Assembly: GCA_021463865.1 (NCBI GenBank)
Contig: JAJTXY010000002.1
Coordinates: forward strand, 252,219 to 316,218
Length of the DNA stretch: 64,000 nt
Source of the DNA: Anaerolineae bacterium
Lineage (GTDB): Bacteria > Chloroflexota > Anaerolineae > Aggregatilineales > J027
Reading direction: 5' to 3'
A program made the translations under genes and the position numbers. The notes under the pieces were generated by a model. That model saw nothing but the letters and a program-made list of their open reading frames with translations, made no database searches and had not been told where the DNA came from. This document shows, piece by piece, positions 18,558 through 51,156 of the stretch (position 1 is its first letter; the number at the start of each line of letters is the position of its first letter).

Positions 18558-18678
18558 CTCTCATCTTCCAGAAAAATCTACCGGAATTGGCACCTTCGGC
18601 AGTGGTTGTGGCCTAACGACCCACTGGCGGGTTGCCGCGACATCATCGGGCCGGTCCCTCCGTCGCTCTGGATAAGAG
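18558..18678 (-). promoter_or_regulatory. SAM-I riboswitch (S-box leader) upstream of metK
   Basis: Read on the minus strand, the segment opens with CTCTTATCCAGAG, continues with the highly conserved GGAGGGACCGGCCCGATGA, then CGGCAACC, and ends with AGGTGCCAATTCCGG and GGAAGATGAGAG. The 5' CTCTTATC and 3' GATGAGAG close the P1 stem. These are the hallmark blocks of the SAM-I aptamer. Binding of S-adenosylmethionine should reduce metK expression. Length is about 121 nt, normal for the class. Confidence 0.95.
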
Positions 18679-43357: not shown

Positions 43358-43993
43358 ATGTTAACGATTGAGGACGCAGACATCATTCAAGGACTTCGAC
43401 GTGGCGACGAAAGCGTCTTTGTATCCCTGTTTGACGGCTATCAAAACTCACTGCTCCGCTTGGCATTGATGTATGCCACTGACCAGCGACTCGCCGAAGA
43501 AATTGTCCAAGAGACATGGCTGGCAGTCTTAAAAGGCATACACCGCTTTGAGGGTCGTTCGGCGCTCAAAACATGGATATACAGCATCCTCATTAATCGG
43601 GCCAAAACCGTCGCACAACATGAAGGCCGCTATAATAACTTGACACTATCCCTTGATGAGCAGGCCGAGTCGAATGAGCCGTCCGTGCCGATAGATCGCT
43701 TTCATCCGGACGACGATCACCCCTATCCGCATCATTGGCTGAACGGCCCATCAGACTGGGGTGACCTCCCCGAAGACAAATTACTCTCGGATGAGACCCA
43801 AAAGGTGATTTTAGCCGCGATTGACGACTTATCGCCAAATCAGCGTGAAGTCATTACCCTGCGAGATATTGAAATGCTGTCGTCCGAAGAAGCCTGTAAC
43901 ATCTTAGGGATTAGTGAGTCTAATCAGCGGGTTTTGCTGCATCGCGCACGGGCCAAAGTACGGCAGGCACTGGAAGAATATTTGGAGCGATAA
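43358..43993 (+). CDS. ECF-type RNA polymerase sigma factor
   Basis: 211 residues. Region 2: RRGDESVFVSLFDGYQNSLLRLALMYATDQRLAEEIVQETWLAVLKGIHRFEG, with the core RSALKTWIYSILINRAKT. Region 4: IDDLSPNQREVITLRDIEMLSSEEACNILGISESNQRVLLHRARAKVRQAL. A ~55-residue acidic linker separates the two regions. It is followed after 11 bp by a zinc anti-sigma gene, so the pair is a classic ECF regulatory unit. The target promoter is unknown. Confidence 0.92.
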   Translation: MLTIEDADIIQGLRRGDESVFVSLFDGYQNSLLRLALMYATDQRLAEEIVQETWLAVLKGIHRFEGRSALKTWIYSILINRAKTVAQHEGRYNNLTLSLDEQAESNEPSVPIDRFHPDDDHPYPHHWLNGPSDWGDLPEDKLLSDETQKVILAAIDDLSPNQREVITLRDIEMLSSEEACNILGISESNQRVLLHRARAKVRQALEEYLER

Positions 43994-44004
43994 GACGGGC
44001 AACT

Positions 44005-44286
44005 ATGGACGAACACGATTTAACCTGCCAAGAATTGGTAGAATTGGTTACAGATTATTTGGAAGGGGCATTGCCTGAAACGCAGTTCAAGCGTTTTGAG
44101 GAACACCTCTCTGCTTGTCATGATTGTCATCATTATTTCGACCAGATGCGGTTTACCATCCGTCTGGTGGGTCGGCTTTCCGAATCACACTTGAGTTCCG
44201 GGGCCAAAGATGAACTTCTCAGATTGTTCCGCGATTGGAAAAAAGAATTGCCCGAACAGGAAAAACCAGAAAACTTAGAAGAATAG
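44005..44286 (+). CDS. Zinc-binding anti-sigma factor
   Basis: 93 residues. The zinc-finger anti-sigma motif Hx3CxxC is present as EEHLSACHDCHHYF (~residues 31-44), after a helix LTCQELVELVTDYLEGALPE. It has no transmembrane helix, so it is a soluble, possibly redox- or zinc-responsive anti-sigma protein of the ZAS family. It probably holds the preceding sigma factor inactive. Confidence 0.88.
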   Translation: MDEHDLTCQELVELVTDYLEGALPETQFKRFEEHLSACHDCHHYFDQMRFTIRLVGRLSESHLSSGAKDELLRLFRDWKKELPEQEKPENLEE

Positions 44287-44308: not shown

Positions 44309-44336
44309 TTGACAGAAAAAATAGACTGCGTTATCT
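44309..44336 (+). promoter_or_regulatory. Promoter of the lysine operon leader
   Basis: TTGACA (44309-44314), 16-bp spacer, TTATCT (44331-44336). Transcription should begin near 44343, giving a leader of about 380 nt before lysW, unusually long and full of structure. Confidence 0.82.
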
Positions 44337-44376
44337 TTTTGCCCACTTACACAGTATCAATGAGCAATTATTCAAC

Positions 44377-44430
44377 ATGACCATTTCATCTGTGACTTTG
44401 AAAAAAGGCAAAAAGCCAAACCGCACCTAA
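44377..44430 (+). CDS. Lysine-rich leader peptide 1 (attenuator)
   Basis: 17 codons: MTISSVTLKKGKKPNRT, stop TAA at 44428-44430. Four of five consecutive codons (44401-44415) encode Lys. The last codons lie inside the 5' arm of terminator 1, the classic arrangement for transcription attenuation by ribosome position. The Shine-Dalgarno (GAG) is weak. A very short frame MSNYST from ATG 44360 ends in an ATGA overlap with this start. Leader-peptide attenuation of a lysine cluster has been reported for Thermus thermophilus; by analogy lysine shortage would stall ribosomes here and allow read-through. This is inferred. Confidence 0.68.
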   Translation: MTISSVTLKKGKKPNRT

Positions 44431-44450
44431 CCGGGTGGTTTTTGTGTTTT
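44419..44450 (+). terminator. Leader terminator 1
   Basis: AACCGCACC (44419-44427) pairs with GGGTGGTT (44433-44440), 8 bp with one bulged A and one wobble, loop TAACC, then TTTGTGTTTT. Its 5' arm coincides with the end of leader peptide 1. Confidence 0.7.
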
Positions 44451-44528
44451 GCCAACAAGGGCACAGCCAAAAAGCAGAAACTGAATGCCACCCGCGCGGT
44501 GGTTTTTTGTTTTTTGAGTCATGAGTAA
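44442..44528 (+). CDS. Putative lysine-rich leader peptide 2
   Basis: A frame from TTG 44442 to TAA 44526-44528 contains TAKKQKLNATRA, four Lys codons in all, aligned with KKGKK-PNRT of leader 1 and KKAKKTNTR of leader 3. Its codons also run through terminator 2, as expected for a duplicated attenuator unit. The start codon is TTG and the only purine-rich stretch is GGTGG 3-4 bp upstream, so translation is uncertain; it may be a decayed copy. Confidence 0.42.
   Translation: MCFANKGTAKKQKLNATRAVVFCFLSHE
44488..44515 (+). terminator. Leader terminator 2
   Basis: CCACC (44488-44492) pairs with GGTGG (44498-44502), loop CGCGC, followed by TTTTTTGTTTTTT. The short GC-rich stem and long T-tract form a strong intrinsic terminator. 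Confidence 0.82.
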
Positions 44529-44541
44529 CAAGGAAATCAGC

Positions 44542-44622
44542 ATGTTTTTTATAGACAGCATCAGCAAAAAAGCGAAAAAAACGAACACCCGCTGGCGGCG
44601 ATTAGCCCGACAGTGCGCTTGA
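44542..44622 (+). CDS. Lysine/arginine-rich leader peptide 3 (attenuator)
   Basis: 26 codons, stop TGA at 44620-44622. It begins MFFIDSISKKAKKTNTRWRR; Lys codons are AAA AAA GCG AAA AAA (44566-44580), followed by four Arg codons. ATG 44542 has AAGGAA at 6-bp spacing, the best Shine-Dalgarno of the three leaders; an in-frame ATG at 44521 is an alternative start. The terminator lies 29 nt past the stop. A stalled ribosome at the Lys run would prevent or allow folding of the downstream RNA; the antiterminator was not identified. Confidence 0.68.
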   Translation: MFFIDSISKKAKKTNTRWRRLARQCA

Positions 44623-44650
44623 TGCTGGATTGAGTGAAAATCAACCACCG

Positions 44651-44690
44651 CGCCCTCTCTGGAAAATCGCCAGAGGGGGCGTTTTTGTTT
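44651..44690 (+). terminator. Leader terminator 3, just before lysW
   Basis: CGCCCTCTCTGG (44651-44662) pairs with CCAGAGGGGGCG (44670-44681), 12 bp with one wobble, loop AAAATCG, then TTTTTGTTT. It is 36 bp before the lysW ATG and should block transcription unless an antiterminator forms. Confidence 0.9.
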
Positions 44691-44726: not shown

Positions 44727-44903
44727 ATGAGCAATAACAATGTCGAATGTCTGGAATGTGGTGCGGATGTACGAGTGCCCGGCAATGTCATGCAGGGTGA
44801 AATTTTGAAGTGTGGGGATTGTGGCATTGAGCTAGAAGTCACTGAACTGAACCCCCTAACCATTGACCTCGCGCCGATGGAAATGGAGGACTGGGGCGAA
44901 TGA
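44727..44903 (+). CDS. lysW: Amino-group carrier protein LysW
   Basis: 58 residues. LysW carries alpha-aminoadipate (and glutamate in some organisms) through its C-terminal Glu, keeping intermediates protected until release of lysine. The two zinc pairs CLEC and CGDC, an acidic body ([17 protein letters not shown]) and the diagnostic C-terminus EDWGE are all present. The ATG has TAGGAG upstream. The stop overlaps the lysX start (ATGA at 44900). It is the first gene of the operon, directly after leader terminator 3. Confidence 0.95.
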
Positions 44904-45763
44904 GCGCCAGAATCGGAATTTTGTGCAGCCGCGTCCGCATCGAAGAAAAGCTGTTGTTCGGGGCATTTGAAGAATTGGGTATCAATCCCGTCCGGTTGGA
45001 TGAACGCGAGATGATTGCGCGGATTGGCGAATTTGCCCCGGAAGTGGACGTGGTGTTGGAACGCAGCATCAGCACCTCGGCGGGATTGGTCGCGGCCCAA
45101 TTGTTGGAAGCGGCCCATATCCCCGTCATCAATAGCCATGCCACCGCCAGTACCTGCGCCGATAAGATTCGCACTACTATCGCGCTGGCTCAACACGGGG
45201 TAGCACAGCCCATTACCGAAGTAGCGATGAGTGCCGAATCCGCCCTTGCCGCGATTGAGCAGATGGGCTATCCGGTTGTCCTTAAACCCGCCATTGGCTC
45301 ATGGGGGCGTTTGTTGGCACGGGTCAATGATCGGGATGCCGCCGAAGCCATCCTTGAACATAAAGAAACGCTGGGTGGGGTCAGTCACCAGATTTATTAC
45401 ATTCAGGAATATATCGAAAAGCCCGCCCGTGACATCCGCGCTTTTGTCATCGGCACGGAAACCATCTGCGCGATCTACCGCAACTCACCCCACTGGATTA
45501 CCAATACAGCACGCGGCGGCAAGGCCAGCAACTGCCCCATCACGGATGATATTGCCGAGATTTGCCAAAACGCGGCGTTGGCAGTCAGTGGTGGACAGGG
45601 AGGCATCTTGGCGATTGACTTGCTGGAAGACCCCGAACGTGGCTTGCTGGTCTGCGAGGTCAATCACACGATGGAATTTCGCAATAGCATTGATACGACG
45701 GGAGTCAACATCCCGCTGCGTATGGCCCAATTTGTACTGAACAGCGTCGAGGTGGTGCAATGA
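44900..45763 (+). CDS. lysX: Alpha-aminoadipate--LysW ligase LysX
   Basis: 287 residues, ATP-grasp fold. It joins the alpha-amino group of alpha-aminoadipate to the C-terminal Glu of LysW. Features: [53 protein letters not shown] (ATP-binding loop), and the Mg-site motif [16 protein letters not shown] near residue 260. Whether it also accepts glutamate for arginine synthesis (ArgX activity) cannot be decided by eye. Starts inside lysW by ATGA and ends in ATGA with lysY. Confidence 0.94.
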
Positions 45764-46806
45764 GCCGGCTGCAAGTTGGCATCGTTGGGGCATCAGGCTA
45801 TACAGGCGGGGAACTGCTACGTCTGCTCAGTCAGCACCCGCAGGTCGAGGTTATGCAGGTGACGGCGGGGCGCAATGTAGGCAAGTTTGTCCACAACGTC
45901 CATCCCCATTTACGTGGTCAGTTGAATCTGCAATTTATCGCGGATGAGGGTCTGCAACCCTGTGATATATTGTTTCTCGCCCTGCCACATGGACAAGCCC
46001 AACAATCTATCGAACACTACACCGCCCTCGCCCCGCGTATCATTGATCTCAGTGCCGATTTCCGTCTCCACAACCCCACCGATTACGCCACCACCTATGC
46101 CCATGACCATCATGCACCGACGTGGTTAGACCGTTTTGTGTACGGCCTACCGGAAATCAACCGTCAAGCATTGATCGGTGCGAATTATGCCAGTGGAGTT
46201 GGCTGCAACGCGACGGCGACCACATTGGCGCTGTGGGCATTAGTCAAGGCCGGAATTTTGAATGCCGACCAACCCATTTTTGCCGATATTAAGGTTGGCA
46301 GTAGTGAAGCAGGCAGCACACCGACCCCTGCCAGCCATCACCCCGTCCGTAGCGGTATCGTGCGGCCCTTCCAGCTTACCGGACATCGGCATGAGGCGGA
46401 AGTGCGTCAAGCCCTGCGTGACTGCGGCGACTTCGATATACGAATGGCGGTGACAAGTGTTGAAATGGTGCGCGGCGTGGCGGTGGCGGTGCATGTCACA
46501 TTGCCCACCGGATTACGCGAACGAGATTTGTGGCAGGCGTATCGGGGTACTTGGAAGGGTGAACCCTTTGTACGCATCGTGCATGAACAAGATGGCCTGC
46601 ATCGTCACCCTGAACCACGTTTATTGGCAGGGACGAATTATGCCGATGTCGGCTGGGAATATGACCCGACCACTGGACGGACGGTGCTGCTGGCAGCGAT
46701 TGACAATCTGGGTAAGGGCGCGGCAGGAAGCACTGTGCAGTGCATGAATTTGATGTGTGGATTCGACGAAACAACCGCATTGACCTTTGGGGGAATTTAT
46801 CCATGA
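45760..46806 (+). CDS. lysY: [LysW]-aminoadipate-6-phosphate reductase LysY
   Basis: 348 residues, of the ArgC family. It reduces LysW-aminoadipyl phosphate to the semialdehyde using NADPH. The N-terminal [23 protein letters not shown] is the Rossmann motif, the catalytic Cys lies in [15 protein letters not shown] (~residue 150), and [17 protein letters not shown] is the conserved C-terminal stretch. In the absence of a second argC here it could serve arginine synthesis too. ATGA overlaps link it to lysX and lysZ. Confidence 0.95.
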
Positions 46807-47621
46807 CATACGTTTTGAAGATCGGGGGCGGCGCAGGGGTTGACCAACACGCCGTCACCCGCAATTTAGCTGAACGAATTCAAGCAGGCGAACGCTGGGT
46901 CTTGATACATGGCACAAGCGCCGCCGCCGATGAATTAGCCGCCCGTATGGGGGTTGCGGTGCGTACTATCACCAGCCCCGGCGGGCATGTCAGCCGCTAC
47001 ACCGATGCCCAAATGATCGGCATTTATGGGATGGCAGCCGCCTCAGTAAACCAACAACTGTGTTCCGAATTATCGGGCTATGGCGTGCGGGTCGCGGGAT
47101 TAACTGGGCCAACTGTCATCACGGCCCAACGCAAGCAGGCCATTCGTGCCATTCAAAATGGACGGCCTGTCGTGATTCGGGATGATTTTTCAGGTCGCAT
47201 CACAGGCATTGACCGCGATTTGTTGGAAACACTGCTGGACGCAGGCTACACCCCGATCATTGCTCCCCTTGCGATTGGAGAAGCGGGTGAGTCGCTAAAT
47301 GTAGACGGTGATTTAATCGCCGCCACCGCCGCCCATGCACTTAACGCCGATTTGCTCATGATTTTAAGCAACGTGCCCGGCTTGCTGCGTGATGTAAATG
47401 ACCCCACCTCGGTGATTGAGCATTTCGCCTTACACGAAATCGAGCGTTATGAGAATTTCGCGGCGGGGCGCATGAAGAAGAAGTTATTGGCGGCACGGGA
47501 AGCTAATATCGAGCAGGTTATTTTAGCCGATTCTCGACTGGCAAATCCGATTGACGCGGCACTTGCGGGTGCGGGCACACATATTTGGCGGGAGGGACAG
47601 CATGTTGGACACCACGCTTGA
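46803..47621 (+). CDS. lysZ: [LysW]-aminoadipate kinase LysZ
   Basis: 272 residues from ATG 46803 ([20 protein letters not shown]), overlapping lysY by ATGA; an upstream in-frame ATG at 46740 would add 21 unlike residues. ArgB-type amino-acid kinase with KIGGG, SPGGHVSRYT, GLTGPTVITAQRKQA and the ATP-site GRMKKKLLAAREA near the C-terminus. It phosphorylates the gamma-carboxyl of LysW-bound aminoadipate. It overlaps lysJ by 20 bp. Confidence 0.94.
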   Translation: MTYVLKIGGGAGVDQHAVTRNLAERIQAGERWVLIHGTSAAADELAARMGVAVRTITSPGGHVSRYTDAQMIGIYGMAAASVNQQLCSELSGYGVRVAGLTGPTVITAQRKQAIRAIQNGRPVVIRDDFSGRITGIDRDLLETLLDAGYTPIIAPLAIGEAGESLNVDGDLIAATAAHALNADLLMILSNVPGLLRDVNDPTSVIEHFALHEIERYENFAAGRMKKKLLAAREANIEQVILADSRLANPIDAALAGAGTHIWREGQHVGHHA

Positions 47622-48777
47622 TACTCTTGCCCTTGAACAAGCCCACACCAGCGGCGTCTACATGAAGCGCGATTTGCAAATTGAGCGCGGCGAGGGCGCT
47701 TATCTCTACGATACGACGGGTCGGCGTTACATAGATTGCGTCGGGGGACAGGGGACAGCCAATTTAGGTCATGCCCACCCCGCCATTGTCACTGCCATTC
47801 AGCGGCAAGCCGCTGAACTCATTTCCTGCCCAGAACTTTTCCACAATCCGATACGGGCGCAGTACCAAGCCGCCTTGTGTGAGGCCGCTGGCATGAATCG
47901 CGTGTTTCTATGCAACAGTGGGGCAGAGTCGGTGGAGGCCGCCATCAAGTTTGCACGGGCCAGTACCGGACGGACGAGCATTATTTCGACCATGCGCGGC
48001 TTTCACGGACGCACCTTTGGCGCACTAAGCGTGACATGGAACAAGTCCTACCGCGAACCCGTTGAGCCGCTCGTGCCGGGGGTCAATTTTGTGCCATTCA
48101 ACAACCTCGAACGATTACAGGCAGCACTGAACGATACGGTAGCGGCGGTAATCATTGAAGTTGTGCAGGGCGAAGGCGGCGTCTATCCAGCCGAACAAGG
48201 GTATTTGCAGGCCGTCCAAGAGTTATGCCGGGAAAACGGGTCGCTATTGATTGTGGATGAAGTGCAGACCGGATTTGGGCGCACAGGTAGCCTATTTGCC
48301 CATCAGCAGGACGGTATCACCCCCGATTTATTGTGCCTTGCCAAAAGCATCGCAGGGGGCTTGCCAATGGGGGCGGTGTTAATTGGCGACCGGGTGAATA
48401 CACTTGCCCCATCGCTCCACAGCAGCACGTTTGGCGGTAATCCGTTGGTGTGTGCGGCGGCATTGGCAACCCTTGAGGTGCTGCAAAAGACCGATGTGAT
48501 TGAACAAACCCATCAGCGGGGAACTGCCGTGATTGAACATTTACGGAATGCCCTGCCTGAAACTATGGTACGTGAGGTGCGTGGACGAGGATTGTTGATT
48601 GGAATTGAACTACGCGATAAGGCTGCACCATATTTGCGCCGACTACAAGAGGAGGGCGTGTTGGTACTGACCGCTGGCCCAACCGTTTTGCGACTGCTGC
48701 CGCCGCTGGTTATCAGCGATGCGGATTTATGGGATGTAATTGCCACCATTGAAAGGGTGTTGACCGATGCCGTTTGA
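47602..48777 (+). CDS. lysJ: [LysW]-aminoadipate semialdehyde transaminase LysJ
   Basis: 391 residues from ATG 47602 with GGAGGG 5 bp upstream; a start at 47551 is unlikely. ArgD-type class III PLP aminotransferase with DTTGRRYIDCVGGQGTANLGH, FLCNSGAESVEAAIKFARA, VIIEVVQGEGGV, the Asp in LLIVDEVQTGFGRTG, and the PLP Lys in LLCLAKSIAGGLPMG (~residue 248). It gives LysW-lysine. Overlaps the hcs gene by 11 bp. Confidence 0.95.
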   Translation: MLDTTLDTLALEQAHTSGVYMKRDLQIERGEGAYLYDTTGRRYIDCVGGQGTANLGHAHPAIVTAIQRQAAELISCPELFHNPIRAQYQAALCEAAGMNRVFLCNSGAESVEAAIKFARASTGRTSIISTMRGFHGRTFGALSVTWNKSYREPVEPLVPGVNFVPFNNLERLQAALNDTVAAVIIEVVQGEGGVYPAEQGYLQAVQELCRENGSLLIVDEVQTGFGRTGSLFAHQQDGITPDLLCLAKSIAGGLPMGAVLIGDRVNTLAPSLHSSTFGGNPLVCAAALATLEVLQKTDVIEQTHQRGTAVIEHLRNALPETMVREVRGRGLLIGIELRDKAAPYLRRLQEEGVLVLTAGPTVLRLLPPLVISDADLWDVIATIERVLTDAV

Positions 48778-49903
48778 CAATTTTGCCATTATTGAAAGTA
48801 CCCTACGCGAAGGGGAGCAGTTTAGTACGGCGACTTTTTCCACCGCGCAAAAACTGGAAATTGCGGGGCTGTTGGATGAATTTGGGGTCGAAATGATTGA
48901 AATGACCTCCCCGTGCGCCTCTCCCCAGAGCGAAGCCGATATTCGCGCTGTCAGTAATCTAGGATTAAACGCCCGTATTCTGACTCATATCCGCTGCAAC
49001 CGGGATGATGCCATCCGCGCATTGGACACGGGCGTGCATGGCTTGGATATTGTCATCGGTACGTCACCCCAACTCATGCAGCACAGTCATGGCAAGAACA
49101 TCAACCAGATTATTGACCTTGCCGCCGACGTAATGTGTTTTATCCGCGAACAAGCCCCCGATATTATCCTGCGCTTCAGCACCGAGGATACCTTCCGCAG
49201 TCGAGAAGCCGATTTGCTGCGGGTGTATCTCGCCATTGCCGATCTGGGGATGGTCAATCGGTTGGGTGTGGCGGATACCGTCGGGGTCGCCATGCCGCAG
49301 CAGGTCTATCAGATGGTCAATCAATTGGTACGGCTGACCGGGTTGGATGTCGAATTTCATGGACATAACGACAGCGGTTGCGCGATTGCCAATGCTTGTG
49401 CCGCGTTGGAAGGGGGAGCAACGCATATTGATACCACCATTTTGGGCATCGGCGAGCGCAATGGCATTACCCCGCTGGGTGGATTGGTAGCGCGGTTGTA
49501 CACCCTCAATCGAAATTATGTGACTAAATATAACCTCCGTCTGCTGCCTCAATTGGATCGGCTCATCGCGGATATTTGTGAAATAGGCATCCCCTTTAAC
49601 AATTACATCACCGGGGCCAGCGCGTTTATCCACAAGGCCGGGATTCATGCCAAAGCGGTTTTGGCTGACCCCTCGACCTATGAAATTTTGCGGCCTGAAG
49701 AATTTGGACTAAATCGGGAAGTGGCGATTGGGCACCGGCTGACGGGGTGGAATGCCATCCGCGAACGGGCGCTGTCGTTGGGGGTCAGTTTGGAAAATGC
49801 GACCCTGCAAGCCATCACCCAAGACATCAAGCGTCGTGCCGATGTACGCCCCCTGACCTTGCCTGAAGTAGACGCATTAATCTGGGAGGCCGCGAACGCA
49901 TGA
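48767..49903 (+). CDS. hcs: Homocitrate synthase
   Basis: 378 residues. It condenses 2-oxoglutarate and acetyl-CoA to homocitrate, the committed step of lysine synthesis by the aminoadipate route. [17 protein letters not shown] is the conserved LeuA/HCS opening, [15 protein letters not shown] is a homocitrate-synthase-type motif, and [16 protein letters not shown] carries the metal-binding His pair. It starts 11 bp inside lysJ and overlaps lysT by ATGA. Isopropylmalate synthase is an alternative but the [10 protein letters not shown] form and the operon favour HCS (Lys20). Confidence 0.93.
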
Positions 49904-51156
49904 GTGGCAAGACCTTTGCAGAGAAAGCATTGGCCCGCGCCGCCGGAGTCAGTGAAGCTAGTGCTGGGGACATTTTGGATGTGCGGCCAGACATGATTTT
50001 TAGTCATGATAACTCTGCCGCCATCCGCCACATTTTTGAAAAAATCGGAGCGAAAAACATCGCGCGGCCTGACCGGGTAGCCATTACGCTCGATCATGCT
50101 GTGCCCGCCCCCACCACCCAACATGCCCAAAATCATGCTGAAATCCGCGAATGGGTTAAGGAACAGGGCATCGGGCATTTTTTTGAGGTTGGGCGCGGCA
50201 TTTGTCATCAGGTCATTAGCGAGGAAGCCCTAATATTACCCGGTGAAGTCATCTTGGGGGCAGACAGCCACAGCACCCATTTTGGCTGGTTAGGGGCATT
50301 CGGGGCAGGTGTCGGACGGACGGAGATGGCGGCATTATGGGCAACGGGCGAACTCTGGCTGCGCGTGCCGGAAGCGATGCGGGTGACGTTGACAGGTCGC
50401 TTGCAACTCGGCGTCACCGCCAAAGACATCAGCCTGCGAATTTTGGGCGATATGGGGGTCGAAGGCGGCCTCTATCGCTCGGTGGAATTCGCCGGGGATA
50501 CCCTCAGTACACTCTCATTAGATGAACGGCCCGTCCTGCCGAATGTCATGGCGGAATTTGGGGCGAAAAATGCGTATATGCCACCAGATGACGTGGTGTT
50601 TAATTATCTGGAGGCCCACCGCACCCGCGATTATACGCCGCTGTATCCTGACCCTGACGCGCATTATGCGATTGATTATGCGCTGGATGTCAGCCAACTC
50701 GAACCCCAAATCGCGCTGCCCCATCAACCCGATAATGTAGTGCGCTTGTCGGATGCGATTGGTGAACCTGTCCAGCAGGCATTTATCGGCACGTGTACCA
50801 ATGGGCGACTGGAAGATTTGCAAGCGGCGGCGGATGTCTTGCGTGGTCATCAAGTGGCTTGTCGGTTGGTGGTCATTCCCGCCAGTTCGCAGGTGTTATT
50901 AGAAGCTACCCGTTCCGGCATTATCGAGACTTTGTTGATGGCAGGTGCTACCATTGCCACCCCCGGCTGTGGGCCATGTATGGGCAATCATATGGGTATC
51001 CCCGCGCCAAATGAAGCCACTATCAGCAGCGCCAATCGCAATTTTAAGGGGCGGATGGGTACACCCGAAGCACCTGTTTATCTCGCCAGTCCATATGTCG
51101 TCGCCGCCAGTGCCATTTGTGGAGCCATTGCCGATCCGAGGGAGTTTTTATCATGA
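49900..51156 (+). CDS. lysT: Homoaconitase large subunit LysT
   Basis: 418 residues of the aconitase/LeuC-type family. It isomerises homocitrate to homoisocitrate with LysU. The 4Fe-4S cluster cysteines are in [13 protein letters not shown] (~residue 298) and [14 protein letters not shown] (~residue 354), preceded by [12 protein letters not shown] and [16 protein letters not shown]. LeuC of leucine synthesis is similar, but the operon context favours the lysine enzyme. ATGA overlaps on both sides. Confidence 0.93.

Follow-up and report, generated by a model that had tools for sequence, protein, structure and literature searches.

The window, the 64,000-nt stretch of Anaerolineae DNA analysed here, carries a complete LysW-type lysine operon, which comprises lysW, lysX, argC/lysY, lysZ, lysJ and the genes for homocitrate synthase and the homoaconitase large subunit, with more lys-type ORFs 3' of the latter. 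The lysine leader is preceded directly by genes for an ECF-type sigma factor and a small anti-sigma-like protein (43358-44286), and between these and lysW lie a sigma-70-like promoter and two successive units, each made of a Lys-rich leader ORF and an intrinsic terminator, which we term module 1 (distal to lysW) and module 2 (proximal). A single promoter, upstream of module 1, would serve both modules. Its two hexamers are invariant and aligned in all five members of the genus, and the sequence 5' of it in one congener, G001, cannot be aligned with that of the other four members. The leader folds more strongly than its shuffles (z -3.97). Elsewhere in the window, we observed a SAM (S box) riboswitch on the minus strand (18558-18678, 82.4 bits).

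Table. Features of the lysW leader and operon (window coordinates).
Feature	Position	Strand	Details	Basis
Sigma-70-like promoter	44309..44337	+	TTGACA-17-TATCTT, 10/12 matches	consensus match alone
Leader ORF 1	44377..44430	+	MTISSVTLKKGKKPNRT*; ATG 44377, stop 44428-44430; Lys codons 44401-44406, 44410-44415	
Module 1 switching strand (antiterminator 5' strand)	44432..44438	+	CGGGTGG; partner is terminator 1 5' arm	
Module 1 protector, 3' side	44447..44467	+	complementary to leader 1 Lys-codon region	duplex -18.4 kcal/mol, best of 46 loci
KKQK string (second frame of the first-pass annotation)	44469..44480	+	non-ORF; within A-rich antiterminator 3' strand	
Terminator 1	44487..44515	+	GCCACCCGCGCGGTGGT + T-rich tract; stem 44487-44503	intrinsic terminator
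Leader 2 Shine-Dalgarno-like site	44530..44534	+	AAGGA; congeners have CAGGGAAAT	sequence
Leader ORF 2 (third frame of the first-pass annotation)	44542..44622	+	MFFIDSISKKAKKTNTRWRRLARQCA*; stop 44620-44622; Lys codons 44566-44571, 44575-44580	
Module 2 protector, 5' strand	44557..44563	+	AGCATCA, directly 5' of leader 2 Lys codons; partner TGATGCT	complementarity, swapped-locus test (46 modules)
Module 2 antiterminator, 5' strand	44597..44603	+	GGCGATT; partner AATCGCC 44665-44671	
Module 2 protector, 3' strand	44620..44626	+	TGATGCT	aligned in A3
Terminator 2	44650..44686	+	13-bp stem GCGCCCTCTCTGG/CCAGAGGGGGCGT + U-tract; hairpin 44650-44682; AATCGCC in loop + 3' arm	
Lysine operon	44727..51156	+	lysW to homoaconitase large subunit	NCBIfam matches, ORFs

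A first-pass annotation of this DNA had described three Lys-rich frames in tandem before lysW, and made no mention of the terminators at 44487-44503 and 44650-44682. All three strings are present, and the first and third frames are conserved leaders, but the second is not a leader and is lost in the congeners. Both leader ORFs are kept in all four congeners, making five genus members with the window. For leader 2, the ATG at 44542 is the best start and is retained in 5/5 members; the alternative start at 44521 that had been put forward is not an ATG in G002. The conservation of KKxK frames among relatives, which the first-pass annotation had named as a check on its proposal, extends for frames 1 and 3 beyond the genus: other genera and families carry similar Lys leaders at matching places for both ORFs, with AAG as the Lys codon where the window's genus mostly has AAA. 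Base conservation by codon position within KKxKK is partly circular, as loci were picked by Lys content. An ATG starts 78 of the 81 leaders, and Shine-Dalgarno matches are weakly enriched (0.46 in leaders versus 0.29 in shuffles); leader 1 is without a strong ribosome site. To judge from this conservation, leader ORFs 1 and 2 are real Lys-rich leader ORFs, and we infer that they are translated.

The middle, KKQK-bearing frame behaves differently. Its sole start codon is the TTG at 44442, with no ATG or GTG. The frame stops straight after KKQK in three of the five genus members (G001, G003 and G004), continues into the leader 2 frame in G002, and in the window has a tail that differs again; among relatives outside the genus, no Lys ORF was seen between leader 1 and terminator 1. 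We rejected frame 2 as a leader peptide because it can start only at TTG and its continuation is lost in congeners. The KKQK site falls 3' of the switching strand and 5' of terminator 1, in an A-rich strand (GCAGAA...GCCACCC) that forms a duplex of -23.0 kcal/mol with the U-rich switching strand CGGGTGGTTTTTGTGTTTTGC, ranking first of 46 partners. A stretch overlapping this U-rich partner pairs with the leader 1 Lys codons, and here too the predicted duplex ranks first of 46. We take frame 2 to be RNA structure and not a leader. Its A-rich strand and the Lys-codon strand are predicted to be rivals for a single U-rich partner. Two strands competing for one partner must look alike, which would explain why the cores of frames 1 and 2 had appeared aligned.

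To see how widely this arrangement occurs, we collected lysW upstream regions of the class by several routes, dereplicated them to 148, and scored as a module any ORF stretch with at least 3 Lys in 7 codons followed by a terminator 10-110 nt after the stop. At least one such module was present in 65 of the 148 upstream regions, two in 31 and three in none. The proposal that Lys-rich leaders act by attenuation before the lysine operon thereby gains comparative sequence support, and the proposal that the leader is triplicated does not survive: two modules is the most that any region holds. Single modules were found in 17 of 740 shuffles that kept the terminator positions, in 1 of 481 other 600-nt windows and in 0 of 148 antisense strands, and none of these three control sets yielded a two-module tandem. 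The count of 31 is a lower bound, since the 600-nt cut removed the distal module of L234; L044, in which both Lys ORFs are present and terminator 2 went undetected, also stands outside it. With Arg as the query amino acid, at least one module was found in 29/148 regions and a double in one; among the amino acids tested, only Lys gave frequent doubles at lysW upstreams.

A covariance model of module 2 recovered Lys leaders before lysW in other families (L151, L160, L161), as well as a two-module leader, L158, in another family. With model R1, no second copy of module 2 was found elsewhere in the window's genome. Percent identities between modules 1 and 2 came out at 0.76-0.77 in all comparisons, an artefact of gap scoring. 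Two further leaders were observed at other genes. At L152 (G016:C4:105036-105183, minus strand), which the covariance model also recovered in another family, a lysZ-like kinase gene is preceded by one Lys leader, MAHHVVSVEKKGKKGCTPPRLCGG*, and its terminator; this locus stands apart from that genome's lysW locus. At L156 (G050:C20), a homocitrate-synthase-like gene is preceded by a weak candidate leader, MQTHVANKAEKRSQPGR*, and a terminator.

The first-pass annotation had also suggested that the leaders sense arginine. Its full view, three tandem leader peptides sensing lysine and arginine together, draws on the three K-rich strings in the window and the four Arg codons of the third, and we now give it hardly any credence: frame 2 is unconserved and without an ATG or GTG start, and none of the 148 loci has three modules. 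Leaders contain on average 1.3 Arg versus 4.2 Lys, and 22 of 81 have no Arg at all. In leader 2, WRR is encoded by TGG CGG CGA, the CGGCGA part being the antiterminator strand; in several relatives, L046, L047, L070 and L072 among them, CGGCGA is conserved but untranslated, after a TAG stop. Joint sensing of Lys and Arg was rejected on these grounds, and the Arg codons of leader 2 are best explained as a side effect of constraint on the RNA.

Both modules have alternative pairings that covary. Terminator 1 has a short stem in the window and is weak in the genus, and relatives have stronger terminators at the same place; terminator 2 shows compensatory changes at six pairs. In the module 1 antiterminator, 97.5% of cells are paired, with GGGTGG/CCACCC exchanged for GAGTGG/CCACTC. 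In the module 2 antiterminator, GGCGATT/AATCGCC, 90.9% of cells are paired, with compensatory changes at three pairs; its covariation score was reached by 0/500 shuffles, and every slide was worse. As antiterminator and terminator both covary, the same 3' letters would serve two alternative helices. We also observed a locus-specific protector stem, which pairs the Lys codons or the bases just 5' of them, in the window (44557-44626) and in module 2 of relatives (A3), for example ACACATTGAAG with CTTCAATGTGT in L072; codon and pairing constraints therefore appear to overlap.

Strands also fit their own locus better than others. Antiterminator (2:3) duplexes were 3.6 kcal/mol stronger within their own locus than when swapped (-14.7 vs -11.1 kcal/mol), with a p of 4e-10 that is optimistic, the loci being related. 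The Lys-codon strand, taken with the 18 nt before the first Lys codon, paired at -19.2 with its own downstream strand and at -16.1 with those of others, a difference matched in 0/20000 permutations (46 modules, here too from related loci); this widened stretch was chosen after the result with the narrower one, which was not significant (p 0.12), had been seen. We then folded the nascent RNA with a ribosome masking part of it, using equilibrium folding as a proxy for co-transcriptional folding. With the ribosome at the middle Lys codon, the terminator 5' arm was paired upstream with a probability of 0.69, versus 0.42 with the ribosome at the stop (46 modules). The difference vanished when the intervening RNA was shuffled (0.48 vs 0.46; real vs shuffled p 2e-9, again optimistic for related loci). 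The window's own effect is modest, at 0.59 vs 0.41 for module 1 and 0.75 to 0.40 vs 0.43 for module 2.

Lysine operons elsewhere are controlled by L-box riboswitches or T-boxes, and one could imagine here, too, a T-box or a metabolite-binding riboswitch to which the ORFs are incidental, the more so as a T-box precedes trpE in this very genome (L142, G000:C31, reverse strand, about 508-793 of the reversed locus; 93.4 bits, gathering 93). We consider this very unlikely. Searched against Rfam at the gathering and at a permissive threshold, the lysW leader matched nothing save a chance rimP at E 0.81; neither the lysine riboswitch model RF00168 nor the T-box model RF00230 matches it, though the latter detects the trpE T-box, and both identities were rejected for lack of a match. 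What the families share is in-frame Lys codons, not an aptamer-like core. The genome would therefore rely on a T-box in the case of Trp and on leader peptides in that of Lys.

Every testable defining feature of classical ribosome-mediated attenuation is present in these serial Lys attenuators: two ORFs with Lys codons; two intrinsic terminators between leader ORF and first structural gene, as in relatives; antiterminators mutually exclusive with the terminators, by the covariation of both and by own versus swapped loci; and an antiterminator favoured in silico by a ribosome at the regulatory codons (46 modules versus shuffles). Collectively, tandem Lys leader-peptide attenuation before the lysine operon is well supported at the level of sequence comparison, and the lysW leader very probably consists of two serial ribosome-mediated transcription attenuators that each read Lys codons. 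Within a module, pairing of the Lys-codon strand with a downstream strand would hold the switching strand and so let the terminator form. When lysine is plentiful, the ribosome would reach the stop, the terminator would form and transcription would end. When charged tRNA-Lys is scarce, we infer that the ribosome stalls at KKxKK and leaves the Lys-codon strand open; the freed switching strand would then capture the terminator and polymerase would proceed. The part captured would be the 5' arm in module 1 but the loop and 3' arm in module 2.

Polymerase starting from the one promoter would have to pass both terminators before lysW, each needing antitermination. With this one promoter ahead of both units, the probabilities of read-through at each are expected to multiply, which would tighten repression and steepen the response. 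Alternatively, the proximal module alone might regulate, with the distal one vestigial or serving chiefly as a terminator against read-through out of the upstream ECF sigma/anti-sigma genes. Terminator 1 is weak in the genus, leader 1 lacks a strong ribosome site and one module suffices in many families, all in favour of this reading, yet we think it unlikely: both modules are Lys-coded, with the distal Lys codons kept, in 31/31 tandem loci, and the distal antiterminators covary where a bare terminator would need none. Moreover, the lys promoter is 5' of module 1, and G001 has the distal module though its sequence 5' of the promoter is unaligned with the other four. A C-terminal type of leader, K-P-D..S-G-stop, occurs in 9/31 proximal and 10/34 single leaders and in 0/31 distal ones, a distribution pointing to the proximal module as the class-wide form and to the distal one as an addition in front of it. 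Whether the same-signal double attenuator is a multiplicative (AND-like) gate, its distal module added, perhaps more than once, ahead of the class-wide single one in Anaerolineae under selection for a lysine response tighter or steeper than a single attenuator allows, we regard as evenly balanced.

Leader-peptide attenuators are textbook single switches, known from ribosome-mediated transcription attenuation of amino-acid operons at the trp, his and thr leaders of E. coli. Like these, the lysW leader has a short ORF rich in codons of the pathway product, a switching strand after the ORF, and an alternative antiterminator and an intrinsic terminator before the first structural gene. Unlike them, it has two complete units in series for one amino acid, and in its antiterminator 2 the pairing partner is the loop and 3' arm of the terminator, not the 5' arm. 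The lysine cluster of Thermus thermophilus is reportedly controlled by leader-peptide attenuation and would likewise have a Lys leader peptide before a LysW-pathway operon; we know of no tandem organisation like that of the lysW leader there.

We found no description of a same-amino-acid tandem attenuator in the literature searched (subscription journals lay largely outside it), and nothing relevant there on Lys leader peptides in Chloroflexi. Our data suggest that much of Anaerolineae controls the LysW pathway through Lys leader peptides, of which the same search returned no description. A conserved same-amino-acid tandem, with natural one- and two-module versions in one class, can be used to test what serial attenuation gains in repression, steepness and noise.

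The nearest tandem precedent that we found is the Salmonella mgtCBR leader, where tandem attenuators sensing ATP and proline have an additive effect, a case that its authors term a singular example (PMC3641672). Both systems have two short attenuator ORFs in one leader, and one of those in mgtCBR senses a shortage of charged tRNA, for proline (PMC3641672). However, where the mgtCBR elements answer to different signals, both lysW modules are Lys-coded in every one of the 31 tandem loci, each is equipped with an intrinsic terminator of its own, and the paired arrangement is found in many families.
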